DNA of 27,814 nt from a virus. Within the stretch, counting starts at the first letter, position 1. Each line of letters starts with the position of its first letter. The position numbers and the translations under genes were made by a program. Location of the stretch: positions 1 to 27,814 of IMG/VR virus record IMGVR_UViG_3300018875_000070. One strand, given 5' to 3'. The notes below the pieces were generated by a model that made no database searches, was not told the DNA's origin, and saw nothing but the letters and a program-made list of their open reading frames with translations. Shown one piece after another: positions 12,169 through 24,099 of the stretch.

Positions 12169-12465
12169 ATGATCGAAGTTCGCCAGACAGCCGAGTATGC
12201 CAAGTGGTTCGACACCCTTCGGGATGTGAACGCCAAGGCCAGGATCAACGTCCGCATCCGCCGTCTCTCCCTTGGCAACCCCGGCGATGTGAAGCCGGTG
12301 GGTGAAGGCGTCAGTGAGATGCGGGTCGATTACGGCCCCGGCTATCGGATCTACTTCGTTCAGCGTGGTCAGGTTGTGGCTCTTCTGCTCTGTGGTGGCG
12401 ACAAGAGCAGCCAGAGCCGGGACATCGAAAAGGCGAAAGCCCTCGCCAAAGAATGGAAGGAGTGA
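12169..12465 (+). CDS. HigB/RelE-type toxin (addiction module killer protein)
   Basis: A 98-aa protein of the phage-derived Gp49-like / RelE-superfamily (putative addiction module killer, TIGR02683 type). Diagnostic blocks are MIEVRQTAEYAKWFDTLRDV, ARINVRIRRLSLGNPGDVKP, the strand VSEMRVDYGPGYRIYFVQRG and VVALLLCGGDKSSQSRDIEK with A.ALAKEWK at the C-terminus. Members are ribosome-dependent or related mRNA interferases. Full length for the family (about 95-105 aa). Toxin-first order, 4 bp ahead of the antitoxin ATG, is typical for this family. Expressed from the palindromic promoter immediately upstream. Confidence 0.92.
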   Translation: MIEVRQTAEYAKWFDTLRDVNAKARINVRIRRLSLGNPGDVKPVGEGVSEMRVDYGPGYRIYFVQRGQVVALLLCGGDKSSQSRDIEKAKALAKEWKE

Positions 12466-12469
12466 GCCT

Positions 12470-12754
12470 ATGCCCCTCGAAACCAAGCCTTGGGATGCTG
12501 CCGAGCACCTCGACAGCGAAGAAGCCATGGCGGCCTATCTCGATGCCGCTCTTGAGGATGGAGACCCTGCCCTCATCTCTGCCGCCCTTGGCGATATCGC
12601 CAGGGCAAAGGGCATGAGCCAGCTTGCCAGAGAGACCGGGCTTTCCCGTGAGAGCCTCTATCGGTCTCTCAGTGCAGAGGGCAATCCTGAGCTTGCAACC
12701 GTCGTCAAGGTTATGAAGTCGCTCGGGCTCAGGCTCTCTGCAGTTCCTGTATAA
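12470..12754 (+). CDS. HigA-like antitoxin, HTH protein (addiction module antidote)
   Basis: A 94-aa protein starting at ATG 12470, 4 bp after the toxin stop; upstream in-frame sequence belongs to the toxin shadow. The N-terminus (TKPWDAAEHLDSEEAMAAYL then DAALEDGDPALISAALGDIA) is the region that wraps the toxin in this family (TIGR02684 type). Residues 48-90 form a Cro/CI-type helix-turn-helix: AKGMSQLARETGLSRESLYR, SLSAEGNPELATVVKVMKSL, GLRL. It neutralises the toxin and binds the operon's palindrome. The pair could stabilise the prophage or act in abortive infection. Confidence 0.92.
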   Translation: MPLETKPWDAAEHLDSEEAMAAYLDAALEDGDPALISAALGDIARAKGMSQLARETGLSRESLYRSLSAEGNPELATVVKVMKSLGLRLSAVPV

Positions 12755-12886: not shown

Positions 12887-13192
12887 TTATGGACACCGCC
12901 GAAGCTGGCGCGACATATCCTCCGAAGCCTCAATGAAATCACGTATTACCGGCACCATTTGTGCGCGCTTCGCATCCATCTCTCGGATCGAGGCAAGCAG
13001 GGCGCCACTCGTCCGCTGCTCAATTGGTCCAGTGTCGAGAGATTCAGCTGCTTCTGCCATCGCACTTACGCCCTCGATCATTTTACGCAAGTGGGTGTCA
13101 AGGTAGCGGCACTCGCTCTTAGAAAGCGGTGCCGCCCATGCTGGCGCGGAAGCAGTGAAAGCGGCAACGGCCGCAACGGTGAGAATACGCAT
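12887..13192 (-). CDS. small secreted protein with PLSKSEC motif (copy A)
   Basis: A 101-aa protein started at ATG 13192, with a GGGGGC purine tract upstream; the frame continues to 13228 without support. A signal peptide is evident: MRILTVAAVAAFTASAPAWA with predicted cleavage before APLS. The mature part begins PLSKSECRYLDTHLRKMIEG, continues EAAESLDTGPIEQ and KRAQMVPVIRDFIEASEDMS, and ends in RQLRRCP. Two conserved cysteines (SKSEC near the start, LRRC at the end) could form a disulfide in the periplasm. It is clearly homologous to the protein at 20307-20615. I know no named family. Expressed alone, facing the terminator at 12760. Confidence 0.75.
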   Translation of the reverse strand: MRILTVAAVAAFTASAPAWAAPLSKSECRYLDTHLRKMIEGVSAMAEAAESLDTGPIEQRTSGALLASIREMDAKRAQMVPVIRDFIEASEDMSRQLRRCP

Positions 13193-13259
13193 ATTGAGCC
13201 CCCAATTTTGAGACCCTGAGTCTATCATGCCTGTGACATAGGGGAATAAGCCGTCTGTC

Positions 13260-19415: not shown

Positions 19416-19486
19416 ACGGAAATTTCCGTACATGCAACAGGAAACTTCCGTGTCGCTTCCGTTTCTGGAAAAGCGGATAATTCCGC
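19416..19486. promoter_or_regulatory. cI/cro operator cluster
   Basis: The 86-bp gap between the divergent regulators holds related sites: ACGGAAATTTCCGT (19416-19429, perfect palindrome), CAGGAAACTTCCGT (19439-19452 region, 11 of 14 matches) and GCGGATAATTCCGC (19473-19486, ending 2 bp before the cI ATG). Shared core: CGGA-N4-TCCG. A further TTCC-N6-GGAA lies at 19457-19470. The same core recurs at 20751-20792. These are best read as CI/Cro binding sites; the last one would give CI autorepression of its own translation start region. Confidence 0.75.
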
Positions 19487-19488
19487 CT

Positions 19489-20265
19489 ATGAGACAGAAC
19501 AGCCCTGAGCGCCTCCGAAACAACCTCCAAGCCCTGATTGACTCCAAAGGGATAGACGCGACCAACTTGGCAAAGAAGATTGGTCGTAAGCCGGACTACC
19601 TTCGTGACTTTCTCAATGGACGGAAGAAATCCATCGGGGCAGCGGAGGTGACGGCCCTTGAAGAGGAGTTCGCCTTGAAGCCGGGGTCTCTGTTCAAATT
19701 TGAGTTAGGGGAAGAGGATGGCATTCGGCGCGTCCCGGTCGGGCAGGAGTTCGACCCGGATCCAGAATTCATTGAGGATCGCGCAAATCACGCTATCGAG
19801 ATACGCATTCAGCGAGGCGACCTAAAGCCAGGCGAGGTACCAGAGCGGAACGTGGTCGCTGGCCTTGGCGAGGGCGGCCTCGCGCCCGGCGTAATGGTAG
19901 ACGGGAAAGTTTTGGACGGTGTGCGCGCGGTTTGGAGACTGCCGGTGGATTACCTTCACACCGAATTGCGCGCGCGGGAAGGCGATGTTGATTTCATCCC
20001 GGTTGATGGCGACTCAATGATTCCAACGCTCCTGCCAGGAGATAGGGTCATGATCAACCGAAATCAGACAGCGCCCTCTCCAGATGGCCTGTTCGCGATC
20101 TTTGATGGCATTGGCATCGCCGTGAAGCGGTTGGAGGTCGTGAAGGGTAGCAACCCCGTAAAGATCCGCATCAAATCGGATAACCCTGCTCACGGGACGG
20201 ATGAGATCCTCGCCGACGACTTGCAGGTAATTGGGCGCGTGGTTTGTAAAGTTACGCGCCTGTGA
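19489..20265 (+). CDS. CI-type phage repressor, LexA/S24 family
   Basis: A 258-aa repressor; start chosen at ATG 19489 (MRQNSPERLRNNLQALIDSK) because the upstream frame runs through the operators. HTH at residues 10-45 (DATNLAKKIGRKPDYLRDFL, NGRKK). The C-terminal S24 domain has Ser176 in VDGDSMIPTLLPGDRVMINR and Lys213 in GIGIAVKRLEVV, the Ser/Lys dyad. An Ala-Gly pair at 124-125 (NVVAGLGEGG) in the linker is a likely self-cleavage site, so RecA-stimulated induction is expected. It keeps the prophage silent by binding the CGGA-N4-TCCG sites on both sides. Confidence 0.93.
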   Translation: MRQNSPERLRNNLQALIDSKGIDATNLAKKIGRKPDYLRDFLNGRKKSIGAAEVTALEEEFALKPGSLFKFELGEEDGIRRVPVGQEFDPDPEFIEDRANHAIEIRIQRGDLKPGEVPERNVVAGLGEGGLAPGVMVDGKVLDGVRAVWRLPVDYLHTELRAREGDVDFIPVDGDSMIPTLLPGDRVMINRNQTAPSPDGLFAIFDGIGIAVKRLEVVKGSNPVKIRIKSDNPAHGTDEILADDLQVIGRVVCKVTRL

Positions 20266-20306: not shown

Positions 20307-20615
20307 CTATTGCAGAGAGCACATTCGTAGCAGGAATGCCACGTCGTTTGCTGCTTTGACGTATTCCCGCATAGCAGGGACAAGTTGGTTTCGTTTTGCT
20401 TCAAGCTCGGCAAACGATTTCAACATATTGGCATCCAGCCTATTCTTAATGCGATCATAGTTCACGCTCTCTGCCGCGTCTGCCATCTTCCCCATGGCCA
20501 AAACTACTTGGGCTGTAGCTTTGTGCAGATAGTCGCATTCGGATTTGGATAGGGGATCTGCACAAGCAGCGGAGCTAGCCAGCGCCGCAGCGAGATAAAT
20601 AAGAACAAAGCGCAC
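20307..20615 (-). CDS. small secreted protein with PLSKSEC motif (copy B)
   Basis: A 102-aa protein for which I choose GTG 20615, because GGAGAGG lies just upstream; an ATG at 20660 adds 15 unlikely residues. Signal peptide MRFVLIYLAAALASSAACA, cleavage likely before DPLS. The mature part starts PLSKSECDYLHKATAQVVLA, then KMADAAESVNYDRIKNRLDA, EAKRNQLVPAMREYVKAAND and ends LLRMCSLQ. It aligns over its whole length with the protein at 12887-13192, including both cysteines, the 'AAES' and 'KR.Q.VP..R......A' blocks. Function unknown. Being adjacent to cI and away from lytic operons, it may be expressed in the lysogen. Confidence 0.75.
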   Translation of the reverse strand: MRFVLIYLAAALASSAACADPLSKSECDYLHKATAQVVLAMGKMADAAESVNYDRIKNRLDANMLKSFAELEAKRNQLVPAMREYVKAANDVAFLLRMCSLQ

Positions 20616-20750
20616 TGGACCCTCTCCATAGGTAGCGATTCGATCAGAGTATCTTCTCATTCAAGGAACAGCCCCTGCAATAAGCGAGGCCACGTACGTC
20701 GGCTGTGGATTCTGGGAACAAAACGAAAACATTTTTTCCGTATCATGCGG

Positions 20751-20800
20751 AAGGAAATTTCCGTTTTTAAGTTGACATACGGATTTTTCCGTGCAGACTG
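20751..20800 (+). promoter_or_regulatory. rightward early promoter with repressor operators
   Basis: A consensus -35 TTGACA at 20772-20777 faces right; a weak -10 (CAGACT) follows at 20794-20799. One operator, ACGGATTTTTCCGT (20779-20792), fills the spacer, and another, AAGGAAATTTCCGT (20751-20764), lies just upstream. Both match the cI/cro cluster (13 of 14 with its perfect site for the second). A further half-site pair TTCCG-N7-CGGAA is at 20736-20752. CI bound here would occlude RNA polymerase. Downstream, CTCATC-N11-GATGAG forms a small hairpin, followed by GGAG and ATG 20829. Confidence 0.75.
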
Positions 20801-20831
20801 AGCTCATCACCTCACCGGAGATGAGCCCATG

Positions 20832-20843
20832 CAGACCCTCCCC
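20832..20843 (+). repeat. 12-bp direct repeat, left copy, flanking SLATT cassette
   Basis: CAGACCCTCCCC, identical to 21732-21743 and exactly 900 bp from it. It starts at codon 2 of the reading frame beginning at ATG 20829 and directly abuts the stop codon of the minus-strand SLATT gene. Confidence 0.85.
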
Positions 20844-21578
20844 TCACTTGACGGAATTGGTCCCTTCGATCTCGCAGCGTCGAGGAAACGGCGTATCAAC
20901 GTATCGCCTCCAATTACGCAGGAGTCGCTGTCTGGTCGTTACGACCTTCAGATAGCGTTCCGGACGGTCGAGCGCGGCCTGAGCGAAGTTGTAAGCAAGC
21001 GCATCAACAGCGTGGTAGGTCGGCGGCTCCTCAGCGACAAGGGCTCGCATCTTTCGCCTGATCTCTGCGGGAGTACTGTCAGCAAATTCAGCGTGCAGAG
21101 CCAGGAAGCGCCGTCTCAGGTCGCCGTGGACGTGCTCCTTTTTGGCAAGCCCAACGATGAGCTGTATAGCGCCGATAACGCTGGTTGCCGCGGCGATGAT
21201 GCGACCATCGAACTGAAAGTAGGTCGGCAGCATATCGGACAGGGCAATCACAGTGCCCAGTCCCGATACGAGCACAAAGAAATCGAGCAGCCGGTTCCAG
21301 AAGGCGAAGTGTGCCTCCCGGTCCTCATGATATCGGATGTTGTGGAGAAGGCTGATTTCGCAGGCTTCAGCGTCCGTCAGTTCTTTCTCGGATCCTTGGG
21401 CCGATTCCAGTCGGTCGGCTCCCAATTCTTCTTCTCCTGGTCGATCTTCTCCTGGCGGCGTCGCTCCTCCAGTTCCTCCCGGCGCCTGCGCTCCTGCTCC
21501 TCGCGAAGCCGCTCCAATTCCCGTTCGCGGTCCCTGTCCATCATCAACGGCGGGGTTGAGGTTTTCGGGGTCGGCCAT
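20844..21578 (-). CDS. SLATT-like two-transmembrane effector protein
   Basis: From ATG 21578 (MADPENLNPAVDDG; AAAGGG upstream) the frame is 244 codons. Residues 67-225 carry the SLATT pattern (SMODS/SLOG-associating 2TM effectors): SLLHNIRYHEDREAHFAFWN, transmembrane helices at about 97-113 (LDFFVLVSGLGTVIAL) and 127-145 (IIAAATSVIGAIQLIVGLA), RRRFLALHAEF, then EEPPTYHAVDALAYNFAQAA. SLATT proteins are thought to act as membrane-disrupting effectors in nucleotide-sensing immunity; this one has no sensor or cyclase beside it. Residues 14-66 are Gly/Ala-rich and appear to be read out of frame (see 21377-21541), so the true start or a frameshift is uncertain. Confidence 0.7.
   Translation of the reverse strand: MADPENLNPAVDDGQGPRTGIGAASRGAGAQAPGGTGGATPPGEDRPGEEELGADRLESAQGSEKELTDAEACEISLLHNIRYHEDREAHFAFWNRLLDFFVLVSGLGTVIALSDMLPTYFQFDGRIIAAATSVIGAIQLIVGLAKKEHVHGDLRRRFLALHAEFADSTPAEIRRKMRALVAEEPPTYHAVDALAYNFAQAALDRPERYLKVVTTRQRLLRNWRRYVDTPFPRRCEIEGTNSVK
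21377..21541 (-). CDS. 54-aa coiled-coil segment overlapping SLATT gene (other frame)
   Basis: The alternative minus frame encodes MDRDRERELERLREEQERRR, REELEERRRQEKIDQEKKNW and EPTDWNRPKDPRKN, then TGA at 21379-21377. Codon third positions are almost all G or C here, while the SLATT frame over the same bases uses many GGA/GAA/GCA codons, so this is probably the coding frame of the interval. No ribosome binding site precedes its ATG. It ends in AGA AAG AAC TGA, where a -1 slip on A-AAG would continue into the SLATT domain (ELTDAEAC). It may thus be a separate gene, or the real N-terminal domain of the effector. Confidence 0.5.
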   Translation of the reverse strand: MDRDRERELERLREEQERRRREELEERRRQEKIDQEKKNWEPTDWNRPKDPRKN

Positions 21579-21634
21579 GAGGGCACCCTTTCCATTCGTG
21601 ATCTCCAATCGGTTACAGCGGTTGGTGGTTGCGA

Positions 21635-21665
21635 GGCTCGTGCGAGCCGCATACTCGCACGAGCC
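21635..21665. repeat. perfect 12-bp inverted repeat upstream of SLATT gene
   Basis: GGCTCGTGCGAG (21635-21646) and CTCGCACGAGCC (21654-21665) with 7-nt spacer CCGCATA. It lies 57-87 bp before the SLATT ATG on the minus strand. No T-run follows on either strand, which speaks against a terminator and for an operator or structured leader. Confidence 0.75.
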
Positions 21666-21731
21666 AATAAGATAACGCCCCAACAAAGGAAGTCTTTCCC
21701 GTGTAGGGTTTCATCCACAAGGGAAGGGTCT

Positions 21732-21743
21732 CAGACCCTCCCC
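21732..21743 (+). repeat. 12-bp direct repeat, right copy, flanking SLATT cassette
   Basis: CAGACCCTCCCC, identical to 20832-20843. It also pairs with GGGAAGGGTCT (21721-21731) as an imperfect 11-bp inverted repeat, so the cassette edge can form a hairpin. Confidence 0.85.
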
Positions 21744-21839
21744 ACCTTCACTCTTGAAACCGTCCGCGATGGCTTTGCCGTCGTGTTCCTGATCGGCGTT
21801 GTTGCGCTCGGCTGTGTGGCTCTCGGTGGGAGCTACTGA
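21732..21839 (+). pseudogene. displaced small membrane-protein gene, 3' part
   Basis: The frame from the repeat to TGA 21839 encodes QTLPTFTLETVRDGFAVVFL and IGVVALGCVALGGSY, a single transmembrane helix. It has no start codon of its own. Joined at the repeat to ATG 20829 with its ribosome binding site (GGAG), it would be a 36-aa protein MQTLPTFTLETVRDG... and would be the first gene of the right operon, 1 bp before the ATG at 21841. The 900-bp insert preserves the frame, so a 336-codon open frame still spans it, but the inserted codons are antisense to the SLATT gene. Confidence 0.6.
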
Positions 21840-21840
21840 G

Positions 21841-22077
21841 ATGGGCGAGGTCATCCCCTTTCGTCCGCGTCGTCGCGCGGCCCAGCCAATCACAATCCAG
21901 CAAATCGACATCCGCGACATCCTGAATGTCACGATGGGCGGGCGTAGATGCCCGCATTGCACGGGTCGCGGCTGGATCTTCACGCAAGACACCTACGGTC
22001 TGTCAGTAGTCCCCTGCCCTTGCGGCGGCACGGATGAAGACCGGATCGAAATACCTGACTTCGACGGAGCTGCATGA
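21841..22077 (+). CDS. 78-aa zinc-ribbon-like protein
   Basis: Starts at ATG 21841, 1 bp after the preceding stop; GGGAGC lies upstream. Encodes MGEVIPFRPRRRAAQPITIQ, QIDIRDILNVTMGGRRCPHC, TGRGWIFTQDTYGLSVVPCP and CGGTDEDRIEIPD. The pattern CPHCxGxGW...CPCGG resembles DnaJ-type zinc ribbons. Similar small proteins occur in Rhizobiales phages near the ERF recombinase. Function unknown; it may bind RNA or a host protein. Confidence 0.7.
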   Translation: MGEVIPFRPRRRAAQPITIQQIDIRDILNVTMGGRRCPHCTGRGWIFTQDTYGLSVVPCPCGGTDEDRIEIPDFDGAA

Positions 22078-22631: not shown

Positions 22632-23362
22632 TGAGCGCCGCTGTTGCCACTATCGGGCATAACAATCCTCCGGAGCCGACGCCATTCGAGAAAATGGAAG
22701 CGGAGATCCTGGTCCTGTTCGATCAGGCCAAGGGCTTTCTGGACGGTGAGCCTATTGCCGACCAAAAGCAGGCCGATGCGGTTGGTCTGCTCGATAGCAT
22801 GATCATGAAGGCCCGCAAGCTCGCCGATGAGCTGCGCGTCGAAGAGAAGCGCCCGCACGATGAGGCGGCCAAGGCAGTGCAGGAGAAATTCAAGCCGCTG
22901 CTGACCCGCTGCGATCTAGCAAGGGATGCCTGCAAACAGGCCCTGACACCCTACCTGCGCAAGCTGGAAGAAGAGAAGCGCGCCAAGGCTGAGGAGGCTC
23001 GCCGGGGCGCCGAGGAAGAACGGCGCAAAGCCCAAGAGGCCCTGCAGTCGGCCCATCGCTACGATCTTGAGGCGCGCGAAGCTGCCGAGGCTCAGCTCAA
23101 GCAAGCAGAGGCTGCAGAGAAGGCTGCAAACCGCGCGGAGAAGGACAAGGCGCATGTGGCCGGCACCGGTCGTGCCAAGGGGCTGCGCACCACTTACCGC
23201 GCTGAAGTCACAGACTACACCGCCTTCGCTCGTCACCTGTGGGCCAACCACAAGGACGAATACCAAGAGTTCTTGGATGGCATGGCCTCCAAGCTCGTGA
23301 GCCGTGGCGTGCGTGGCGAAAGCGTCCCCGGCCTCAAGGTCCATGAAGAGAAGGTGATGTGA
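22631..23362 (+). CDS. coiled-coil protein preceding ERF recombinase
   Basis: A 243-aa protein from ATG 22631. It starts MSAAVATIGHNNPPEPTPFE; the 'IGHNNPPE' opening is common in Rhizobiales phage proteins of this region. Residues 75-185 form a long charged coiled coil (KLEEEKRAKAEEARRGAEEE, EAREAAEAQLKQAEAAEKAA). A C-terminal domain follows: GRAKGLRTTYRAEVTDYTAF, ARHLWANHKDEYQEFLDGMA, SKLVSRGVRGESVPGLKVHE. Encoded just before the ERF gene with a 2-bp gap, so it may act with the recombinase, but no function is known to me. Confidence 0.72.
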   Translation: MSAAVATIGHNNPPEPTPFEKMEAEILVLFDQAKGFLDGEPIADQKQADAVGLLDSMIMKARKLADELRVEEKRPHDEAAKAVQEKFKPLLTRCDLARDACKQALTPYLRKLEEEKRAKAEEARRGAEEERRKAQEALQSAHRYDLEAREAAEAQLKQAEAAEKAANRAEKDKAHVAGTGRAKGLRTTYRAEVTDYTAFARHLWANHKDEYQEFLDGMASKLVSRGVRGESVPGLKVHEEKVM

Positions 23363-23364
23363 CC

Positions 23365-24099
23365 ATGAAGATGTCCGAACAGATTAACGAGTTGGCCGAA
23401 GCCCTGGCTAAGGCGCAGGGTGCGATTGCGAACGCCAGCAAGGATGCTCAAAACCCTCACTTCCGCTCGAGCTATGCCAACCTTGCATCTGTGCGAGAGG
23501 CCATTCGCGGCCCGCTGTCGGAGAACGGGCTTGCCTATACTCAGCTCGTGCGCACTGAACAGGGCAAGGTGCAGATCGAGACCATGCTGATCCATAAGTC
23601 GGGTCAGTATATGGGAGAGACGCTAGACATCCCCCTGGCAAAGCAGGATGCGCAGGGCATCGGTTCTGCGACTACCTACGGGCGCCGCTACTCCCTCATG
23701 GCATTGATCGGCATCGCTGCCGAGGAGGATGACGACGACGGCAACGTTGCGACCGCCAACGCGCCCTCTCACCAGCGCCATGAGCCTCCTAAGCCGCAGA
23801 CTGCCCTTAAGCAGGTGCAGGTTCCGGAACCCTCTCCTGCCGAGGAAATGGTTCAGGCGCTCAAGGCCCGCCTCTCTATCTCCTCGCTCGACAAGCTCTG
23901 GCAGAACCCGAACTTCAAGCGGGAATACAGCCTGCTCAATCCAGAGGATCAGGCATGGGTGAAGTCGGTCGATGCTTCTCGCCGCAAGGAGCTGGAAGCG
24001 GACTCCGACCCTACTGCAATACCTGGGCAGAGCGACCCGCCTGAGCCCAAGCAGCAGAGCAAGGTCTCACAGCTTGCCGACGATCATATCCCGTTCTGA
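23365..24099 (+). CDS. erf: ERF-family single-strand annealing recombinase
   Basis: A 244-aa protein; I choose ATG 23365 (MKMSEQINELAEALAKAQGA) with GAAGG upstream over GTG 23359. The ERF core is clear: NPHFRSSYANLASVREAIRG, PLSENGLAYTQLVRTEQGKV, ETMLIHKSGQYMGETLDIPL, then QGIGSATTYGRRYSLMALIG and IAAEEDDDDGN. It anneals complementary single strands for phage recombination and possibly circularisation. The C-terminal third is a variable linker, ending in DDHIPF, the acidic tip pattern used to bind SSB. A NinB-like gene follows. Confidence 0.93.
   Translation: MKMSEQINELAEALAKAQGAIANASKDAQNPHFRSSYANLASVREAIRGPLSENGLAYTQLVRTEQGKVQIETMLIHKSGQYMGETLDIPLAKQDAQGIGSATTYGRRYSLMALIGIAAEEDDDDGNVATANAPSHQRHEPPKPQTALKQVQVPEPSPAEEMVQALKARLSISSLDKLWQNPNFKREYSLLNPEDQAWVKSVDASRRKELEADSDPTAIPGQSDPPEPKQQSKVSQLADDHIPF

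Follow-up and report, generated by a model that had tools for sequence, protein, structure and literature searches.

A SLATT-like two-gene module inserted into the first early gene of a phage genome

Introduction

SLATT proteins are predicted to act as effectors that form membrane pores (PMC7159879). Pairs of TIR and SLATT genes are known from phages (PMC9503650), and DRT10 no longer confers defence when its SLATT gene is missing (PMC12632851). In B3-like Pseudomonas phages, Fc02 olg1/olg2 is a case of an exclusion gene that is expressed in lysogeny and lies antisense to early lytic genes (PMC9936078). Morons and superinfection-exclusion genes are found beside the phage repressor. Mobile insertion cassettes and MITE-like elements (e.g. 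MIC231) carry passenger genes without a transposase, and produce target duplications of about 10–12 bp.

The locus described here shares traits with each of these. It lies in the window, which is the whole analysed stretch of 27,814 nt and is the IMG/VR virus record itself, a single virus contig from a temperate phage. As in SLATT effectors with two transmembrane segments (2TM; SMODS/SLOG-associated, CBASS-like, firmicute-phage TIR-SLATT, DRT10), long helices and a 2TM hairpin are predicted for the main product of the insert, and its homologues occur in phages and near conflict genes, including a caspase-family neighbour in Rhizobium. Unlike those systems, the insert has no nucleotidyltransferase, TIR or reverse transcriptase gene, and has a small disordered partner instead. 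Like the repressor-side morons, it places an accessory gene in the immunity region, and homologues often lie directly downstream of cI (that of Pseudomonas phage TC7 adjoins repressor C), whereas the module in the window splits the gene that opens the early operon and is oriented head-on to the early promoter. With the MIC and MITE-type cassettes it has in common passenger genes without a transposase between target duplications, but it lacks terminal inverted repeats and is present as a single copy. The module is antisense to early lytic genes, as in Fc02, but olg1/olg2 are native overlapping genes with no insertion (PMC9936078); since the arrangement differs, and tblastn with the TC7 homologue reached no other phage record, the two were not taken to be the same module.

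The early region

The features that frame the insertion are as follows.

19489..20265, plus strand: CI-type repressor with an S24 peptidase domain (PF00717, E=4e-12; phrog_4)
20772..20777, plus strand: early promoter TTGACA, flanked by operator-like ACGGAAA/TTTCCGT boxes
20801..20828, plus strand: translational leader of the gene p36, CTCATC...GATGAG, conserved in 14 phages
21841..22077, plus strand: next early gene, 78-aa Cys-rich (CPxC...PCPCGG) protein
23359..24099, plus strand: ERF single-strand annealing protein (PF04404, E=2e-25)

The palindrome GGAAATTTCCGT occurs at 19418, near the start of cI, and at 20753, by the early promoter. Judged from their sequence, these sites are likely repressor operators, and control of the early promoter by CI is plausible. 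The leader of p36 is conserved in related phages (L029-L041, L002) despite otherwise different promoters. As a structured RNA it was rejected, with five pairs and no compensatory change; because compensatory changes are lacking, it is regarded as sequence conservation rather than a proven RNA structure. A phylum-wide search for the host with the 78-aa gene returned weak, implausible matches only.

Between the repressor and p36, the relatives L029-L041 carry variable accessory genes, among them several minus-strand ones and some that are lipoprotein-like. The stretch from cI to the early promoter may thus be an accessory hotspot in this phage group, as this variability suggests. In the window, the minus-strand genes at 20307-20660 and 12887-13228 encode two small proteins that resemble each other, both with an apparent signal peptide (ADPLSKSEC... 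and AAPLSKSEC...), apparently paralogues. Elsewhere on the plus strand there is a toxin-antitoxin-like pair (12169-12465 and 12404-12754), with Pfam matches to Gp49 (E=2e-5) and to an HI1420-type antidote (E=1e-31).

An insertion within p36

20829..20843, plus strand: start codon and codons 2-5 of p36, identical in the relative L005/L029
20832-20843: left 12-bp repeat, within the preceding feature
20844..21731: inserted segment, 888 bp, missing from every related phage
21721..21731: right-hand end of the inserted segment, GGGAAGGGTCT, matching the adjoining repeat in inverted orientation at 10 of 11 positions
21732..21743, plus strand: right 12-bp repeat, CAGACCCTCCCC
21744..21839, plus strand: remainder of p36, intact, with a stop that adjoins the next gene (TGAGATG)

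The initial annotation proposed that a gene cassette had entered a 36-aa membrane-protein gene, and its geometry is confirmed: CAGACCCTCCCC is present twice (20832-20843 and 21732-21743) with a spacing of 900 bp, the reading frame opens at ATG 20829 and has its tail at 21744-21839, and the stop codon of the SLATT gene (TCA on the plus strand, 20844-20846) abuts the left repeat. The right junction (21721-21743) reads GGGAAGGGTCT-C-AGACCCTCCCC, a near-perfect palindrome. By itself a 12-bp exact repeat is unremarkable, because the window has about ten distinct pairs of exact 12-mers no more than 1.5 kb apart. The insertion is held to be real because of the comparison with uninterrupted relatives.

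Related loci were found with the 78-aa gene as bait (11 loci) and with an alignment of p36 (13). Uninterrupted p36 is present in 13 IMG/VR phages, 12 with a complete gene (34–36 aa) and one in which it is ended by the contig edge, so the 36-aa gene is real, and these empty sites support an insertion with a 12-bp duplication. The complete copies are of the MQTLPTFTLEALRDGFAVVFLIGVVALSCVALGGGY type, begin with ATGCAGACCCTCCCC or a variant, and hold a single copy of the sequence; in several of the uninterrupted phages the exact 12-mer follows the ATG once. L005/L029 runs straight across the site: the 43 nt of 20801-20843 are identical to the window, and the sequence then continues at 92% from window position 21732. 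A 33-aa counterpart takes the same position as p36 in L002. The uninterrupted gene is taken as ancestral because it is kept while upstream promoters and operators differ among the phages, and from the 13 uninterrupted copies and the L002 counterpart it follows that the state in the window is derived. By comparison with these relatives, the 888-bp segment in the window is a derived insertion that duplicated 12 bp (n = 1); the other p36 loci examined are all empty. A search of INPHARED with p36 gave no match.

The arrangement is known from a single virus contig, as would be the case for an assembly or chimera artefact, but this is very improbable: both flanks of the insert are native, the insert itself can be recognised as a gene pair of phages, and the k-mers used by assemblers are usually longer than 12 bp.

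There is no sign of decay in the interrupted gene, because each residue of the split p36 is found in some intact copy, among which pN/pS is 0.53. The insert is also free of stops in frame with both halves of p36, giving a plus-strand ORF of 336 aa (20829-21839). The estimated chance of a stop-free insert in the p36 frame is about 0.06 (0.38 for the SLATT portion, 0.15 for what remains), and that of a stop-free insert together with retention of frame about 0.02; this is no more than suggestive. Stop-free stretches of 296 codons account for 3% of all frames in the window, so no selection is needed to explain the open one. The 336-aa ORF was rejected as a real protein in the main reading: GC by codon position indicates coding on the minus strand, and comparable open antisense frames are not rare in the window.

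Gene content of the insert

20844..21380, minus strand: SLATT-like 2TM protein of 178 aa, probably starting at CTG 21380-21378
21377..21544, minus strand: companion mini-protein, 55 aa, charged, 85% polar (MMDRDRERELERLREEQERRRREELEERRRQEKIDQEKKNWEPTDWNRPKDPRKN)
21545..21731, minus strand: leader of the gene pair, containing a perfect inverted repeat of 12 bp (21635-21646/21654-21665)

Where a single minus-strand gene had been annotated, the insert holds two, a companion mini-protein and a SLATT-like protein. GC by codon position shows 21380-21575 to be coding in the frame of the companion and not in that of SLATT, which is coding only from about 21380. At the homologous start the SLATT gene of the window has no ATG, GTG or TTG; the CTG overlaps the TGA of the companion by 4 nt (CTGA), and in the homologues from TC7 and Klebsiella a Met stands at this position or beside it. 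An alternative start would be the ATG at 21578, adding 65 residues that are read in the other frame. No sigma-70 consensus promoter was found for the module; if it has one of its own, this must lie in the leader.

Two hydrophobic segments are present in the 178-aa protein, which belongs to phrog_11791 (E=1e-18). Its AlphaFold (AF2) model (pLDDT 86, pTM 0.79) shows a 2TM fold with a long N-terminal helix and cytosolic helices. The top Foldseek matches of the model are viral proteins annotated as SLATT (prob 1.00, E ~1e-3), the best being from Pithovirus (TM 0.70, rmsd 1.9 over 149 columns), so the earlier assignment to a SLATT-like 2TM product is upheld by structure. The Pfam SLATT models gave no match to the window protein, and the best homologue reaches SLATT_1 only at E=0.06-0.09; because no Pfam SLATT model is reached, the protein is filed as SLATT-like by fold only. 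PADLOC gave no match, NCBIfam nothing useful, and the same was true of solved structures, by sequence and by fold. As a single-protein query against IMG/VR, the window protein had no match. With only two small ORFs encoded, a generator of a nucleotide signal is absent from the insert.

A recurrent pair in other phages

Loci with SLATT homologues were found in IMG/VR (68), bacterial genomes (10), plasmid records (2) and a single phage record. A small polar ORF, defined as one of 40-110 aa with at least 74% polar residues that ends near or just beyond the SLATT start, abuts that start in 69 of the 80 homologues, as against 2 of 110 control genes at the same loci. Many of the 80 homologues are close copies of one another, and the companions form 39 groups. 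The companion in the window sits in this same place; it is rich in Glu and Arg and not in Pro, while across the homologues companion ORFs are usually Pro-rich. Their tails are conserved (VVDTLxPPPRP, NTISESRPVPPPPRRDP, VVNTLPPPPPLP). In two cases the tail is fused to a larger protein (L123, 2520-2909; L119, 782-1243), that of L123 being weakly HTH-like. As in toxin-antitoxin systems, a small, partly disordered partner precedes the putative toxin.

The upstream neighbours of the SLATT homologues are CI-type repressors in at least 20 of 53 cases, and the pairs in other phages usually differ in placement and orientation. On a Rhizobium plasmid (L017:2459-3597), a caspase-family gene precedes a Pro-rich mini-ORF, after which comes a SLATT-like gene that lacks annotation. 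No published description of the pair was found in a literature search that lacked most subscription papers. Present in dozens of other phages, the mini-protein and SLATT pair is probably an immunity module, so far undescribed, and it is more novel and of more interest than the insertion itself.

Route of insertion

The initial annotation had also supposed a mobile or swappable unit, which might be found elsewhere. There is one instance: no second copy or close relative of the insert was found in IMG/VR, INPHARED or PLSDB, and a DNA-level search of the region in INPHARED and PLSDB gave no match, nor did a search of IMG/VR with the leader hairpin as a cassette signature. Within the insert there is no transposase or integrase, and the insert ends do not match each other as terminal inverted repeats of its own. 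A non-autonomous cassette of ~0.9 kb, moved by a recombinase or transposase acting in trans, making 12-bp duplications and restoring p36 by precise excision, would fit the exact duplication and the empty sites expected of a transposable element (13 are uninterrupted), as well as the compact unit with a gene ending at its boundary, the insert length that preserves the frame, and the 11-bp inverted copy at the right end, which could be a recognition feature. Given the three absences above and the emptiness of all remaining p36 loci, such mobility is unlikely.

A one-off illegitimate recombination, by which an ordinary phage moron entered through chance 12-bp homology, inactivating p36 and with no adaptive placement, is possible, if somewhat doubtful. 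It agrees with the single occupied site, the presence of ERF and the commonness of exact 12-mer pairs in the window, but less well with a p36 tail that has not decayed, a boundary exactly at the SLATT stop codon, and the inverted right end.

Proposed working of the module

The explanation that accounts best for the whole is that a SLATT guard module, expressed in lysogeny, was inserted head-on into the early operon. It is moderately probable. Against it count the single instance, the module's lack of a recognisable sigma-70 promoter and of an ATG, GTG or TTG at the SLATT start, a companion rich in Glu and Arg instead of Pro, the different placement and orientation usual for the pair in other phages, and the negative results with the Pfam SLATT models and PADLOC. 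The early operon of the ancestors would have opened with the intact 36-aa membrane gene. A foreign 888-bp module of two genes would then have entered p36 after codon 5, with duplication of 12 bp, either by short-homology annealing through the phage ERF or by non-autonomous insertion; since the phage encodes ERF, annealing would be an ordinary route. In the lysogen, a CI-type repressor would close the early promoter, and minus-strand transcripts of the module, starting in its own leader, would let it protect the lysogen from other phages. The SLATT-like protein would most likely act as a membrane-disrupting effector, which the small partner may restrain or trigger.

The placement of the module at the first position of the early operon, facing the promoter, agrees with what was first noted. 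Given this head-on arrangement, transcription from the early promoter upon induction would run through the module and silence it. Because no stop interrupts the p36 frame within the insert, ribosomes starting at ATG 20829 could reach the p36 stop, and such read-through to a point beside the next gene would limit polarity.

More widely, temperate phages of several proteobacterial groups may share this undescribed two-gene immunity module, in which a disordered mini-protein (often with a [D/N]T-x-PPP or ISESRPxP-type proline motif at its end) is translationally coupled to a SLATT-like pore protein and no nucleotide signal is needed, and which would here have been transferred as one defined piece into the opening gene of the early operon, where transcription from the opposite direction would confine it to lysogeny. 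This is put forward tentatively, as quite possible though short of probable. The empty and occupied sites provide a well-defined example of a phage gaining a pair of putative immunity genes in its early operon without visible loss. SLATT proteins are usually read as effectors that await a signal from a nucleotide or nucleic acid. A form widespread in phages, with a tiny disordered protein as its sole partner, would be a minimal and easily tested system, and would offer a direct way to ask what gates SLATT proteins.
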